Assembly: GCF_033100135.1 (NCBI RefSeq) | Contig: NZ_CP136920.1 | Span: forward strand, 4,893,001-4,957,000 | From: Rubellicoccus peritrichatus | GTDB taxonomy: Bacteria; Verrucomicrobiota; Verrucomicrobiia; Opitutales; Cerasicoccaceae | DNA length: 64,000 nucleotides | Direction of reading: 5' to 3' | Part shown: positions 37,152 to 62,876 of the stretch, one piece after another | How the letters are laid out: each line of letters opens with the position of its first letter | Position numbering within the stretch: position 1 is the first letter of the stretch | Position numbers and translations under genes: made by a program | Notes under the pieces: model-generated | What the model saw: the letters and a program-made list of their open reading frames with translations, nothing else | Databases searched by the model: none | What the model was told of the DNA's origin: nothing

Positions 37152-39137
37152 CTAGTTAATGGCGACCTCAAACCATTCGTTCTCATTCAGGTCATAGAAG
37201 TAATTGGTGTTTATTCCCTCCAGGTAATACAACCAACTTGCCTTCTCATCGCTCCACAAAATGGGAAAAGTGACGGAATTGGTCCATAGCCATTCCAGGT
37301 CAAGTGAAGCTCCATACAGCCAGAAATCATCATCCTCTGCCCCGGTTCCACCAGGATACATCCAACCAAGTTGATAATGGTAAATCCAGGGTAACTGACT
37401 GACATTAAAATCTCCGAACCATTGGAAAGAATAGTCATCTCCTGAATCGTCATACTGACTCACGCCTAAATAGTAACTGCCCATTGGTGGTAGAATCTCA
37501 ACCAGTTGCATCATTCCCAGGTCTTCATGCTGAATCAAATGACAGTGAAGAACAAAAGCACCGGTATATTTCTTGTATCGCGAACGAAGCGTCACGCTTC
37601 CATTGGTTGGGATCATGACAGTATCCAGCCATAAAGGAAGCGTTGGATAAAGATCTCTGGCATTCCTGCCGTCCAAATACGTTCCTTCGATATCGACCAT
37701 ATACATATCGTTCGTATGAACATGATGCGGATGACCGGCTCCGGTTAAAACCCATTCGTCTACTTCGTTCAATGTAAGCGACTGATCCACCCGCGTCGGA
37801 TCAAACAGTTTTCCATTGATCAGAAAGTCAGGTAAACTCCCGGGATTGACACTCACCGAATACAGCAAATCTCTATAACCAGTGACTTCGTCTGCTTCAA
37901 TCGGATCATATATTGGTGATAATTCAATGAGCTCATTCGGTATTCCCATATTCAGCTTTTCACCCTCGACAATAACCGTGGCGATCGTCTGTTCGGCAAC
38001 TGGTCCGGCTGCAAGTTTTGTTAACGAATAAGTGCCAGCTTCTCTGGCCTTTGCCAACACTTCGATACGATTGGCTGAAGCCATATAAAGCTGCTCCATC
38101 AAGACAGGTTCATCAATTGGAATCCCGTCATATGCAATAACGTAAAAGTCGACACCATCACATTCAATCGGGAGCTGATCATCCCTCGACGCATTTACGA
38201 TACGCCAGCGCTGGACCTCGCCCGGTTGGATTCGAATGATAGGATTAATCTGGCCGTTAATAGTCCTGCCAACCTTACAGGTCGGAAAAATCTGGCCAAT
38301 CTGGGTTGCCTCAGTATCCGGATCATTGGTTGTAAAATACTGATCTGCTTCAATTTGCTGATAAAAGAGCAGTACGTCCTTCGCTGCAGCAATCTCCGGG
38401 ATCTCATCAATCGCACCTTCGACGATAATTGTGCCTGCCAATCCACTGCGATACTGAGCCCATATCGCACCATGATTATGTGAGTGATAAAAGTACAAAC
38501 CAGGAGCATGATCTTCCGGAATGCTTATGATGTTGGTAAAAGCTTCGCCCGGGGCAATGCCCTGCAAGACCTGATCCGCCTTGTATGCTGGAGATACGTG
38601 CAGGCCATGCGTGTGCAAGTTATAGGTGTTGATCTGATGAGGGAAATTATAGTCGTAATCCAAACTGGCCGCTTCGATCAATGCAGCCAGGTCACCATTC
38701 TCAATTTTCTGTTTTTGTAACGGCGTGCAAAATTCCAGATCGACTCCAAAGAGAGTAATCAGATCGTCAGTGTTGGCTGGAAGGTTGTTCTCCGTTCTGA
38801 CGATCAATGTATCACCAGCTTTTACGCGCAGTGTAGGCCCGGGAATGGTGGCATTATAAGTCGGCCCCCGAATAAACATGAATTCACTTTCGACATCAGA
38901 GGTCCCGTCACCAAGCAAGTGCCACGTTTCTTCCAAAAGGTGTCCTACTTTAAGCATGCCATCTGCCGAATGAAATTCCGCCGGCTGTTTCAATTCTTCA
39001 AAAGCCTCGACGAATACATTGATCGAATCGGTGGCATAACACGGCAAAGCCAGAGGTAAACTCAATGCAACGATGAACGAGGTAACACAACAGCCTCGAA
39101 ATCCATTCAATTTTCTCAAAGCAAGATTGAAGCACAT
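37152..39137 (-). CDS. Secreted multicopper oxidase with C-terminal Trp/Tyr-rich module
   Basis: A 661-residue exported protein. A signal peptide covers about 1-36. The copper-binding motifs are HTHGLH, YHSHNHG, HPHHVH and HCHLIQHEDLGMM, giving the type 1 and trinuclear copper ligands of a three-domain oxidase of the CotA/laccase type. It could oxidise phenolics, metals or bilirubin-like compounds. Residues 573-661 are an extra module (PWIYH, YPGG, LWT, FPILWS, WLYY, NEWF) found again at the end of the secreted protein coded at 60741-62774. This module is not part of the oxidase fold. The gene stands alone, between lplA-like and ppc. Confidence 0.9.
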   Translation of the reverse strand: MCFNLALRKLNGFRGCCVTSFIVALSLPLALPCYATDSINVFVEAFEELKQPAEFHSADGMLKVGHLLEETWHLLGDGTSDVESEFMFIRGPTYNATIPGPTLRVKAGDTLIVRTENNLPANTDDLITLFGVDLEFCTPLQKQKIENGDLAALIEAASLDYDYNFPHQINTYNLHTHGLHVSPAYKADQVLQGIAPGEAFTNIISIPEDHAPGLYFYHSHNHGAIWAQYRSGLAGTIIVEGAIDEIPEIAAAKDVLLFYQQIEADQYFTTNDPDTEATQIGQIFPTCKVGRTINGQINPIIRIQPGEVQRWRIVNASRDDQLPIECDGVDFYVIAYDGIPIDEPVLMEQLYMASANRIEVLAKAREAGTYSLTKLAAGPVAEQTIATVIVEGEKLNMGIPNELIELSPIYDPIEADEVTGYRDLLYSVSVNPGSLPDFLINGKLFDPTRVDQSLTLNEVDEWVLTGAGHPHHVHTNDMYMVDIEGTYLDGRNARDLYPTLPLWLDTVMIPTNGSVTLRSRYKKYTGAFVLHCHLIQHEDLGMMQLVEILPPMGSYYLGVSQYDDSGDDYSFQWFGDFNVSQLPWIYHYQLGWMYPGGTGAEDDDFWLYGASLDLEWLWTNSVTFPILWSDEKASWLYYLEGINTNYFYDLNENEWFEVAIN

Positions 39138-58799: not shown

Positions 58800-60644
58800 T
58801 CATCCTAAACCATCACTCCCCACACCATGGTGGCAACGGAAAAAATTATCCGGATCGTAACGACGCTTGATCTCCAGTAGTCTTGAATAATTGACACCCC
58901 AAAACTGGCGCTTCCAATCAGACTCAAAATAATCGGCTTCATTGGCATAAGCGCCGGATTCCGGTGTCAGCTTTCGGATGATGTACATGGCCGCATTGAC
59001 CTTATCTATTTTCTTTTTCGCTTCGCTCTCATTGGGCTCATGACCTTTCACACCAGGATAAACCTTTTGCTCGCCTGCGGTCAGGATTAAGAGCGCGGCG
59101 GCATTAAAGACCACGGGATTGACTGATGTTTCCCGCCCTCGGTCGATTGCCTCCTGCGAGGCACCTGCCTGTCCCTTATTAATTTGCATGGAAAGAGACC
59201 AATGCCGTGATGCATCAAAAAGTGCTTTCGCAAAACGCGTGCGAGCTCCTGCCCTAAAGTGGTTTTTAGGAATCCAGCGCGACTGGTAAGTGTACCAGTA
59301 TTTCGAAACTTCGCCCGAATTGGGAGCCCACCAATACTGGATGCCGGCATGATCCGGATTATTATTAAGCTCCACGAGTTCGGGGTGGTGTGCTTTCCAG
59401 TAATCATAATTCCACATATCACGGGCCGGAATATATGAAGGCTTTATCTCAAAGACATAGTCCTTCGAAAATTCATCAAGCCATTTCTTCAAAGGCTCCC
59501 AAGCCGACTCAACCTGCTCCGCTTTCAAGCCCTGGAACATAAGGAAGAGTTTGATCGAATTGTCCGGATTGAAGGAAAACTGTTCGCCCCAGTGCGGATT
59601 GTGAAGGGCGGTGTCGTAAAATTCCAAAAACCGCTTAATCAACCGCTGGTAGGCCTTGTCTGATTTCGCGTTTATATGCCCCTCAACAATCCCAAACTGA
59701 CTTGGCAGTGGATGCGTCGCATACGTGATGCGGGTAATGATTCCGTAAGTGCTGCCTCCACCTCCTCGCAAAGCCCAGAATAAATCCGGATGCTGAAATG
59801 CATTCGCAGTGATAAGATCACCATTGGCTGTTACGACTTCAGCTTCCAGAACACTGGATGCGCCCATGCCATATTTCTTGGAGAAACTACCAAAGCCGCC
59901 TCCCTGCGTAAAACCTCCAGCTGCGCCGACGGTCGTGCAACCACCGCCCTGAACATAACGCCCGGTATTGGTGGTAGCTTCTGTGTATGCCTCCAGCCAA
60001 CGCGTTCCCGCCATTACATTCAGAGCCGGCACCCCGCGATGACCAGCCGGAGCTCCAACTGGAACAAACGCATCTATTGTCGTGGCACCTCGCATATGAT
60101 GCGTCCAGATAAGCAAAGCATCAGGATCATTGGAACGTCCCAGATAATCATGACCCGTTCCTTTAACAACCACCCGGATGTTATGCTTGCGGGCAAACTT
60201 AACCGCAGCAGCGACATCCTGGGGCTCATGGGCAGCAACTGCATAAATGCTTGGAGCGGATTCCCAGGCATTAGCCCAGCCAATAGATTGAGTCGCCCCC
60301 GCCTGCTCTTCGAGGTAAAAGGGATTCTGGATTTGTTTCAATGCCAGGGAGCAGGTTTCGCCATCAGGATCGACTTTGCAGGCATGCAAAGGACTGATGG
60401 GTTGAATCAATCGCCCACGGACGGATTCTTTGAGAGCATCCCAATCAGCTTGTTTCGGCCATCCGACATCATTGGGTTTGTTATAAACAATACCCACTTT
60501 TGAAGTCTGATTCGAAGCAAATGCTTTGGAGCCAGCGAGAGAAAGACCAACCAGCCCCGTGCCCATGACATCAAGGAATCGACGCCTGCCCAAATTGGTT
60601 TGATCAGAACTGGGTTTTGTCTCTTGATTCCGATTTGAAGCCAT
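58800..60644 (-). CDS. Tat-exported FAD-linked oxidoreductase (berberine bridge enzyme type)
   Basis: A 614-residue flavoprotein. A twin-arginine signal lies near the N-terminus (GRRRFLDVMG, then a hydrophobic stretch ending in ASA-like small residues). The PCMH-type FAD-binding domain has VVKGTGHDYLGRSND and VQGGGCTTVGAAGGFTQGGG, and the C-terminal BBE motif is around WGVNYSRLLEIKRRYDPDNFF. It would oxidise sugars, phenols or alkaloid-like compounds with O2. Start at 60644 is the only ATG just before the Tat segment. It is convergent with the roadblock-like gene; a palindromic repeat lies upstream. Confidence 0.9.
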   Translation of the reverse strand: MASNRNQETKPSSDQTNLGRRRFLDVMGTGLVGLSLAGSKAFASNQTSKVGIVYNKPNDVGWPKQADWDALKESVRGRLIQPISPLHACKVDPDGETCSLALKQIQNPFYLEEQAGATQSIGWANAWESAPSIYAVAAHEPQDVAAAVKFARKHNIRVVVKGTGHDYLGRSNDPDALLIWTHHMRGATTIDAFVPVGAPAGHRGVPALNVMAGTRWLEAYTEATTNTGRYVQGGGCTTVGAAGGFTQGGGFGSFSKKYGMGASSVLEAEVVTANGDLITANAFQHPDLFWALRGGGGSTYGIITRITYATHPLPSQFGIVEGHINAKSDKAYQRLIKRFLEFYDTALHNPHWGEQFSFNPDNSIKLFLMFQGLKAEQVESAWEPLKKWLDEFSKDYVFEIKPSYIPARDMWNYDYWKAHHPELVELNNNPDHAGIQYWWAPNSGEVSKYWYTYQSRWIPKNHFRAGARTRFAKALFDASRHWSLSMQINKGQAGASQEAIDRGRETSVNPVVFNAAALLILTAGEQKVYPGVKGHEPNESEAKKKIDKVNAAMYIIRKLTPESGAYANEADYFESDWKRQFWGVNYSRLLEIKRRYDPDNFFRCHHGVGSDGLG

Positions 60645-60647
60645 AAA

Positions 60648-60724
60648 GTAGAACAAGCTTCCAGCTTGTTTAATTCAGTGTAAGGACGCGTTGTAAAATA
60701 AAACAAGCTGGAAGCTTGTTCTAC
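60648..60724. repeat. 24-bp perfect inverted repeat of GTAGAACAAGC elements
   Basis: The arms (60648-60671 and 60701-60724) are perfect 24-bp reverse complements around a 29-bp spacer. Each arm is itself a hairpin, AACAAGCT-TCC-AGCTTGTT. The elements share their head with the copy at 48003-48026. The pair lies between two minus-strand secreted-enzyme genes, in the gap upstream of the flavoenzyme gene, and could act as a terminator-like barrier or a REP-type element. Confidence 0.8.
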
Positions 60725-60740
60725 AATTTAAAACACCTAA

Positions 60741-62774
60741 CTAGTTCACCGCGAACCATTCATTTGTGTTGGTGTTGAAGAAATACCATGGGCTTGCTGT
60801 CGCAGTATCGTAATACAGCCAGGCATTCAGATCATTGCTCCAGATAAACGGAAAGGCGTTGTCCTGAGTCCAGACCCAGCCCATTTTTAATGTATCGAGG
60901 AAGAACCAATAGCTGTTAGTCTGGCTCCCCTCGCCTCCCGGGTAGACCCATTGCAGTTGTTCGTGATAGATCCATGGATACTCACTCAGGTAAACATTCC
61001 CCAGCCACGGCACCAGAGATGATTCCCCGTCAGGGTTCAATGCGATCGGCTGCAAATATGCCAGTTCGGGTGAGAGTGCGACAGCACGTGTGATGTTAGC
61101 CCCAATGGCCTCTGCCGGTCGAGTTGGTCCAGTGTTAGTAAATGTGTTTGCGTCTCTCGTGTTGACAAAGACGACAAGGGCGAAATCCAGATCCGGCATA
61201 AGCGTCAACTGGGTCGAGAACCCACTCAGGCCGCCGTCTTTGCTGACAACCTGTGGGATGCCAACCGATTCAACCGGCGGCGCCACATTCCAGGCCAGAC
61301 CGGCAAAGCTCGTTCCTGCTCCGGAAAAGTAAGGCGTCTGCGCGATGCTCAGGCCTTGAGTCAAGGTGGGAGGAACCACCATGTCATTAACAATCGTATG
61401 CCCAAGCCCAACCTCTGCAAAGGAAACCATGTCAGCAATGGTCGAACTGACTGCACCGGCTGGTGCCCAGATTGGGATGACATTTGTCGCCGGTGTATCG
61501 GGCAATGATACCTTAATCGAGAGTGGTTCCACGAAACCGGATCCCGGATTGGTCAGCTCAAGATGCACCACCTCGCCACCTTCAATAAAAGCCTGAGCCG
61601 TCGCACCGATTCCGCCTCCCTGAACGATCGTCACGGTTGGGGCGGAAGTATAGCCAGCTCCACCACTCGTAATGCCGAGCCCGACGACGGAGCCGTCCTT
61701 AACGATTACGGTTCCGGTCGCAGCTGTCGTTGGATTGCCTCCTGAAAAAGTCATTGCCGCAGTTGCATGATATCCGCTGCCGCCATTTACTTTGGTATAA
61801 CCCGTCACGCCGCCATCAGTAAGGACAGCCGTGTATTCGGCTCCGGTTCCCCCACCACCTGTAATCGTGACAGTTGGCGTGTTGACATAACCGGAACTCA
61901 CGGAAACCGGAGTCAATGCCTCAATGGCGCCTGTCGTTTGATCAATCGTTTCAGTGGCAAAAGCCAAATCAAACCCCTCGGCCACAGGCACACCGGGATC
62001 AGAAGGCACGAAGAGATAAGTATCACTCATCCCAATCGGAGTCAGCACTGTGTTGGAAAGATAAGTCCAGTAGTCGTCAATGGGATCACTGGAAAAGCCT
62101 TCATTGAATTGATAAGGCAACAACAATCCAAGAATACCGATGCTGATGTCCGAATAGAAATACGGCGCCGGAAGGGTTGTTGCTGTGGGAGGACTGACAT
62201 TAAAGTTCATTGGCGTCGTATTCTCCAAAAAGGTGATCAGATCCGGTGCCGTATACTCCTGGATTGTAGGGCGACTATTGGGTGCGCAGCCGGGGACATT
62301 ATCATTGGAGCAAAGCGTAGGTGTCGATGGGAGACCGCTGTTCATCACGCCCAGCTCAAGCAGACTGAGCGGTGCCATGCTCGGCTCAAGCGAAGTAATA
62401 ATCTGGGCGTAATCCGAAGCGGGCGTGCCCAGAGCAAGACTGCCTTCGGCAACTTGTCTGCCAAACCCGGCTGTGGTCAAAACCTTGGTCACAGAGCCAA
62501 TCTCAAAGATCGTGTCAGTCGTGAATGCATTTCCCGAAGAATCACTGACACCATATTGGTAGAAGAAACGCTGACCATTCCAGGTAATACCTATCGCCAC
62601 TCCCACGGCTTGACCTTCTTCCACCAAGGGCTCTCCATAAAGCGCGGCAAGCTCGGCAAATTCCTGGACAAGATATTCATTGGTCGATTGGGCCAATGCA
62701 GTGGTAGACGAAGCCAAAGAAGCGATGAGTAGTATGAGTGAGTGTCCTAATCGTAGCATGAGCGGAACATCCAT
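60741..62774 (-). CDS. Secreted beta-lactamase-family protein with inserted repeats and C-terminal Trp/Tyr-rich module
   Basis: A 677-residue exported serine beta-lactamase-like protein (class C/penicillin-binding type). Signal peptide about 1-29. S94-x-x-K97 (in IGSVTK) is the nucleophile motif, Y-S-D (207-209) takes the place of Y-x-N, and KDGG (512-515) the place of H/K-T-G. An insertion at about 293-425 holds three to four units of about 40 residues (GYxxxPTVTxxGGGxGA). Residues 590-677 form a module nearly the same as the end of the multicopper oxidase. A TTG at 62789 and an ATG at 62759 are alternative starts. It may be an esterase or peptidase rather than an antibiotic hydrolase. Confidence 0.85.
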   Translation of the reverse strand: MDVPLMLRLGHSLILLIASLASSTTALAQSTNEYLVQEFAELAALYGEPLVEEGQAVGVAIGITWNGQRFFYQYGVSDSSGNAFTTDTIFEIGSVTKVLTTAGFGRQVAEGSLALGTPASDYAQIITSLEPSMAPLSLLELGVMNSGLPSTPTLCSNDNVPGCAPNSRPTIQEYTAPDLITFLENTTPMNFNVSPPTATTLPAPYFYSDISIGILGLLLPYQFNEGFSSDPIDDYWTYLSNTVLTPIGMSDTYLFVPSDPGVPVAEGFDLAFATETIDQTTGAIEALTPVSVSSGYVNTPTVTITGGGGTGAEYTAVLTDGGVTGYTKVNGGSGYHATAAMTFSGGNPTTAATGTVIVKDGSVVGLGITSGGAGYTSAPTVTIVQGGGIGATAQAFIEGGEVVHLELTNPGSGFVEPLSIKVSLPDTPATNVIPIWAPAGAVSSTIADMVSFAEVGLGHTIVNDMVVPPTLTQGLSIAQTPYFSGAGTSFAGLAWNVAPPVESVGIPQVVSKDGGLSGFSTQLTLMPDLDFALVVFVNTRDANTFTNTGPTRPAEAIGANITRAVALSPELAYLQPIALNPDGESSLVPWLGNVYLSEYPWIYHEQLQWVYPGGEGSQTNSYWFFLDTLKMGWVWTQDNAFPFIWSNDLNAWLYYDTATASPWYFFNTNTNEWFAVN

Positions 62775-62876
62775 AAATCTGTCCAACAAGTAAAGATGAT
62801 AGACAATTTATAAGGTGCCAGCCCTAGGAGTTTAAGTATGTTACATAGTAAATGAACATCAGTGGACTCTGCTCAG

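Follow-up and report, generated by a model that had tools for sequence, protein, structure and literature searches.

Dockerins and CBMs are portable accessory domains that secreted enzymes carry at one end or the other, as a rule in a single copy. Dockerins are helical, with two calcium-binding loop-helix motifs, and are attached to diverse enzymes; for CBMs, placement at either end is typical, as are homologues without the module. The linear sorting tags known to us are strictly C-terminal. In the phylum to which the organism considered here belongs, PEP-CTERM is a known surface-sorting tag (Haft et al. 2006, PMC1569441). The choline-binding modules of pneumococcal surface proteins form a beta-beta-solenoid of aromatic hairpin repeats (PMC4471590), while the OCRE domain (PF17780), known from eukaryotic RNA-binding proteins, has tyrosine octamers and builds its aromatic repeats into a beta-sheet that binds poly-proline (PMC5127646).

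The window, a 64,000-nucleotide stretch of the Rubellicoccus peritrichatus genome (contig positions 4,893,001-4,957,000), contains two genes whose products end in the same kind of aromatic module. Table 1 presents an overview of both genes and their modules. The first encodes a multicopper oxidase (MCO). Direct reading of its translation reveals the four copper-ligand motifs HTHG, HSHNHG, HPHHVH and HCHLIQHEDLGM, a Pfam scan assigns the catalytic part to PF07731/PF07732/PF00394, and the complete protein used as a query finds no homologue in relatives. The second gene encodes a protein of the beta-lactamase family (PF00144), for which an alternative TTG start at 62789 is possible (ORF 60741-62789, minus strand). 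The PF00144 profile (329 positions) is spread across residues 54-555 of this protein, and about three glycine-rich repeats (TPTVTITGGGGTGAEYTAVL...GGSGY) are inserted within the beta-lactamase domain at residues ~290-440. Adjoining the gene is a FAD-linked oxidase-like protein (58800-60656, minus strand) that has a twin-arginine-like signal, NLGRRRFLDVMGTGLVGLSLA, and no module.

Table 1. Genes carrying the aromatic module in the window, and the modules themselves.
Feature	Coordinates	Strand	Description
MCO gene	37152..39137	-	661 aa; signal peptide MCFNLALRKLNGFRGCCVTSFIVALSLPLALPCYA, three cupredoxin regions and C-terminal module
Aromatic module of MCO	37155..37421	-	residues 573-661, up to the stop codon; own-genome profile E 1.4e-27
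Beta-lactamase-family gene (PF00144)	60741..62759	-	672 aa from the ATG at 62759; signal peptide; C-terminal module
Aromatic module of beta-lactamase-family protein	60744..61007	-	last 88 residues; profile E 9.2e-28

An earlier note on this DNA had aligned the two tails by eye and counted about 38 identical positions. BLASTP agrees: with one gap, 37/87 positions are identical and 56/87 similar, which as a single comparison gives 80.5 bits and E 1e-26. The local score is 240, whereas 2000 shuffles of one tail average 40 with a standard deviation of 7.7 and never exceed 77. Since the score lies so far above the shuffles, a richness in Trp and Tyr common to both tails is insufficient as an explanation, and the shuffles, together with genome-wide profile matches reaching E 1e-30, rule out a chance or compositional likeness. 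Two further claims of the note, that the catalytic parts are unrelated and that both proteins are exported, are in keeping with the different Pfam families and with the signal peptides judged by inspection on both proteins.

The family is considerably larger than first noted. Against the whole window genome (one contig, 5.8 Mb), a single tail as query gave 47 matches at E <= 1, and a profile built from 25 copies gave 66 matches at E <= 0.1, of which 56 reached E <= 1e-5, some of the profile-tail matches being partial. The genome thus holds about 56-58 copies, and the 58 carriers taken for detailed analysis amount to about 1% of its genes. A signal-like N-terminus is present in 58/58 carriers versus 11 of 45 control ORFs of the window (Fisher p ~5e-18), both judged by one home-made rule (ATG, hydrophobic core, plausible cleavage site) instead of SignalP. 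Each of the 58 proteins has exactly one module, located within 10% of a protein end in 57 cases where 11.6 would be expected at random. In 44 carriers the module is C-terminal, with a median of three residues remaining after it, and in two it is internal. In the other 12 it lies at the N-terminus directly behind the signal peptide, beginning 31-49 residues after the start codon, so the tail is not confined to the extreme C-terminus as the note had supposed. N-terminal placement is also seen in relatives (L110, L117, L122 and L137), and a quick tree of 48 modules implies six changes of position, although its weakly supported branches would permit as few as one.

Several individual members of the family deserve mention. 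One copy (G000:C1:264980-265219, plus strand, G000 being the window genome) is broken by three stop codons and probably belongs to a decayed gene. Four paralogues, three of them in tandem (L054, L055 and L051 at G000:C1:839684-843217; L064 at G000:C1:5605138-5605410), carry the module immediately after the signal peptide and, at the C-terminal side, a region with a CxxCH haem-type motif; L055, the one that was scanned, has no Pfam match. L060 (G000:C1, ~2323200-2338219) is an exported protein of 4996 residues with the module at its C-terminal end; the module is also present in its 3107-residue orthologue L109 from G002.

The module is about 90 residues long and 27.6% aromatic (W 10.3, Y 9.1, F 8.2%), with a median net charge of -6. 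Four hairpin-like repeats (WIYHetLGWLY, iWfYD..LGWlWT, YPflYrasdgaWLyY and PRwFYnfsTgeWe) follow the pattern Ar-x-Ar, ~5-7 residues, Ar-x-Ar, where Ar is W, Y or F. AF2 modelled the window tail as all-beta (pLDDT 73.6) and a deltaproteobacterial member as eleven short strands with no helix (pLDDT 88.0, pTM 0.73); the models are shallow (8 sequences), and the five AF2 models range in confidence over 59.5-88.0. The module is predicted to be an all-beta domain of four aromatic hairpin-like repeats, in which the aromatic residues may serve mainly as core instead of binding surface. Foldseek against the PDB (best E 0.59 and 1.0) and VIA-align (best Z 4.3 and 4.2, to amine-binding lipocalin-like chains) returned no clear relative, and BFVD no structural match; with matches this weak, the fold may be new or already known. 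When profiles were run against PDB sequences, no hit fell below E 0.049. A Pfam scan of 91 modules at E <= 1 picked up only a weak OCRE signal, NCBIfam gave scattered single-member matches none of which was better than E 0.017, and no description of this domain was found in the open-access library searched. The note's remark that there is no named family therefore holds for Pfam-A and NCBIfam. Going by these searches, the module is a domain family that the versions of Pfam and NCBIfam searched do not list and for which there is no clear solved fold.

The family, with more than 90 members in total, has a patchy distribution. Within the same taxonomic family, G002 has 43 copies and eight other genomes have none or one; within the same order, some genomes have 12, 12, 27, 46 and 21 copies and most lack the module; and of 388 genomes sampled across the phylum, 9 have it. 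In a genome further removed within the phylum, five genes in a 30-kb stretch (G056:C45; L135, L136) end with a shorter relative of the module corresponding to about its first 60 positions. When the consensus sequence was used as a query against a wider contig collection, it matched one Opitutales MAG (43 copies) and three deltaproteobacterial MAGs (7, 5 and 9 copies), one of them titled Syntrophobacteraceae. Around the Syntrophobacteraceae MAG, 395 genomes were sampled and only that MAG itself is positive; this isolated deltaproteobacterial occurrence suggests transfer into a few lineages. A phage, plasmid or viral origin was dropped because the consensus has no match in such sequences. The deltaproteobacterial protein L195 (G411:C225:9590-9841, minus strand) has a C-terminal module on a body that resembles, by eye, a P-loop sulfotransferase (HAGLHKTGTTTLQ). 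Having no evident signal peptide and no Pfam match, it is the clearest exception to the rule of export; a second, L198, lies at the edge of a contig and is a polytopic membrane protein.

The proteins to which the module is joined are remarkably varied. Among the 32 of 58 window-genome carriers scanned with Pfam, the enzymes comprise S8 (subtilase) and S1 (trypsin) peptidases, a metallophosphatase with Calx-beta, a His phosphatase, a nucleoside hydrolase and a cyclophilin, alongside CAP, MauG peroxidase, arylsulfotransferase (ASST), DM13, PQQ propeller, DUF1800, DUF4331 and DUF4465 domains and LRR and Ig repeats. Other genomes add sulfatase, M12 and S53 (pro-kumamolisin) peptidases, purple acid phosphatase and SBBP/NHL propellers. 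Export is the only visible property common to all partners, and the function of the module must be something that they share.

Homologous bodies also exist without the module. Module-free homologues were found for the cyclophilin in G005, G022 and G023 and for DUF1800 in G002, G005, G007, G009 and G030, and the window genome itself has module-free paralogues of both. In six of the DUF1800 homologues (L158-L162 and L165), a calcium-loop-like segment, DxNxNGxxDxWE...DxDGDGMTNxxEAxAGTDP, lies behind the signal peptide, as if one N-terminal accessory domain substitutes for another. Where the module is present in both the window genome and G002, it is inherited along with its body. In 11 orthologue pairs, for which the G002 loci were chosen for module presence and a twelfth pair based on 53 residues (L095/L115) was left out, module identity is 39-67% versus 45-68% for the bodies, and the position is always unchanged. 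Since the two ranges are similar, the module is maintained by selection. In 11/11 pairs the best module match in the window genome is the orthologue's own module; modules thus travel with their bodies, and for loci chosen in this way a mobile gene cassette swapped among paralogues is ruled out. To judge by these comparisons, the module is an optional part that is retained once acquired.

With moderate confidence, we take the module to be a common tag by which secreted enzymes are probably attached to the cell surface or to the matrix around it. Export itself would be accomplished by each protein's own N-terminal signal peptide. The module, an independently folding domain added once, at either end, to unrelated exported proteins, would then come into play after export, as a tag that is portable and binds non-covalently. 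Aromatic faces exposed on it may recognise one ligand common to all carriers, candidates being a surface glycan, an exopolysaccharide or a surface protein belonging to the cell surface or extracellular matrix, and binding would keep the diverse enzymes near the cell. Binding, a ligand common to all carriers and the location of that ligand at the surface or in the matrix are three points that we infer. Since the partners have no substrate in common, a common location suits them better than a common substrate. Placement at either end, single copy and very diverse partners together speak for a binding tag for one common ligand and against both a substrate-specific module and a linear sorting tag. 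Signal peptides, unrelated partners and module-free homologues, the marks of a portable terminal module, are all found. The genomes analysed yielded no ligand or receptor, nor any partner gene distributed along with the module.

In role, though without a claim of kinship, the module is comparable to the choline-binding modules, which likewise append aromatic hairpin-like repeats to many unrelated exported enzymes. The differences are that the module is a fixed unit of ~90 residues, never in tandem, that none of the 91 members matches the Pfam choline-binding repeat models at E <= 1, and that no beta-beta-solenoid chain is among the Foldseek and VIA matches to the all-beta AF2 models, for which the best Z is 4.3. 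We know of no choline-containing wall polymer in these Gram-negatives.

The note had read the tail as an anchoring, sorting or secretion signal. Surface anchoring stays the best functional reading, whereas a linear C-terminal signal is contradicted by the N-terminal copies: a tag of this kind would not sit behind a signal peptide, and a strict C-terminal sorting signal such as PEP-CTERM or the T9SS tail is therefore rejected. Placement that is not exclusively C-terminal is also what distinguishes the module from the T9SS C-terminal domain. The likeness to the PEP-CTERM/exosortase tag (PF07589) otherwise extends to many copies per genome, a sporadic taxonomic spread, unrelated bodies with signal peptides and occurrence in Gram-negative environmental bacteria; however, the module is a domain predicted to be all-beta, lacks a PEP motif, transmembrane helix and basic tail, and is found at both protein ends.

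A folded passport for export or sorting would escape the objection to linear tags. An outer-membrane machine, for example type II secretion, would move signal-peptide proteins from the periplasm to the outside by reading the fold, so that either end works. This explanation is unlikely, although it accommodates cargoes that are numerous and unrelated, invariably have a signal peptide and invariably bear the module at an end, as well as a sporadic occurrence in multiple copies such as known sorting tags show. It also accommodates the separation from PEP-CTERM: the window genome has 38 PF07589 places, none inside any of the 58 module proteins, and none of 91 modules matches PF07589. That the two occur on separate proteins fits, weakly, two alternative address systems. 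Against such a passport, the tags known so far are confined to the C-terminus and the module is not, and homologous bodies are still exported in sister genera with few or no module copies. Moreover, the co-occurring secretion or sorting system for which the note had proposed a search was not found. Exosortase occurs in 27 of 29 genomes whether or not they carry the module; it was set aside as a partner for want of co-distribution, although a presence so general does not discriminate. A search for SprA_N of the T9SS gave no match in 29 genomes, but its control was equally silent.

Quite unlikely is a CBM-like role in which the module would direct its enzyme to a polymer outside the cell, for instance a polysaccharide of algae or sediment. 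An aromatic-rich beta domain at either end of proteins with module-free homologues is in character for a CBM, and some partners are degradative (sulfatase, proteases). Most partners, however, are not active on polysaccharides (MCO, beta-lactamase, cyclophilin, nucleoside hydrolase, MauG, DM13 and DUF4331), no CAZyme catalytic domain is found among the 32 of 58 window-genome carriers scanned, and no Pfam CBM family matches the module. Protein-protein docking, by which the module would bind one scaffold or surface protein and gather exported enzymes in a complex, is improbable: single copy, either end and diverse enzymes amount to dockerin-like usage, and aromatic repeats forming a beta-sheet recall OCRE, but the OCRE match is confined to five of 91 members (best E 0.0077), no scaffold was found, and a module predicted to be almost entirely beta has no Pfam dockerin match.

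Returning to the attachment tag, a broader version is possible, if tentative: a folded aromatic domain at either end would direct dozens of exported proteins in each cell, unrelated to one another, to a single destination, the surface or matrix, and would constitute an undescribed delivery or retention system, with its own receptor or machine, in some Verrucomicrobiota and a few lineages that acquired it. The natural N- and C-terminal fusions make the retention hypothesis directly testable. If the module is a retention tag, dozens of proteins per genome would gain an annotation and a ready protein-display tag would be at hand. With its carriers making up about 1% of the genes, the module indicates the destination of a large part of the exported proteome, and if it does serve for retention, it would explain how secreted enzymes can stay close to these Gram-negative cells in the absence of a covalent anchor.
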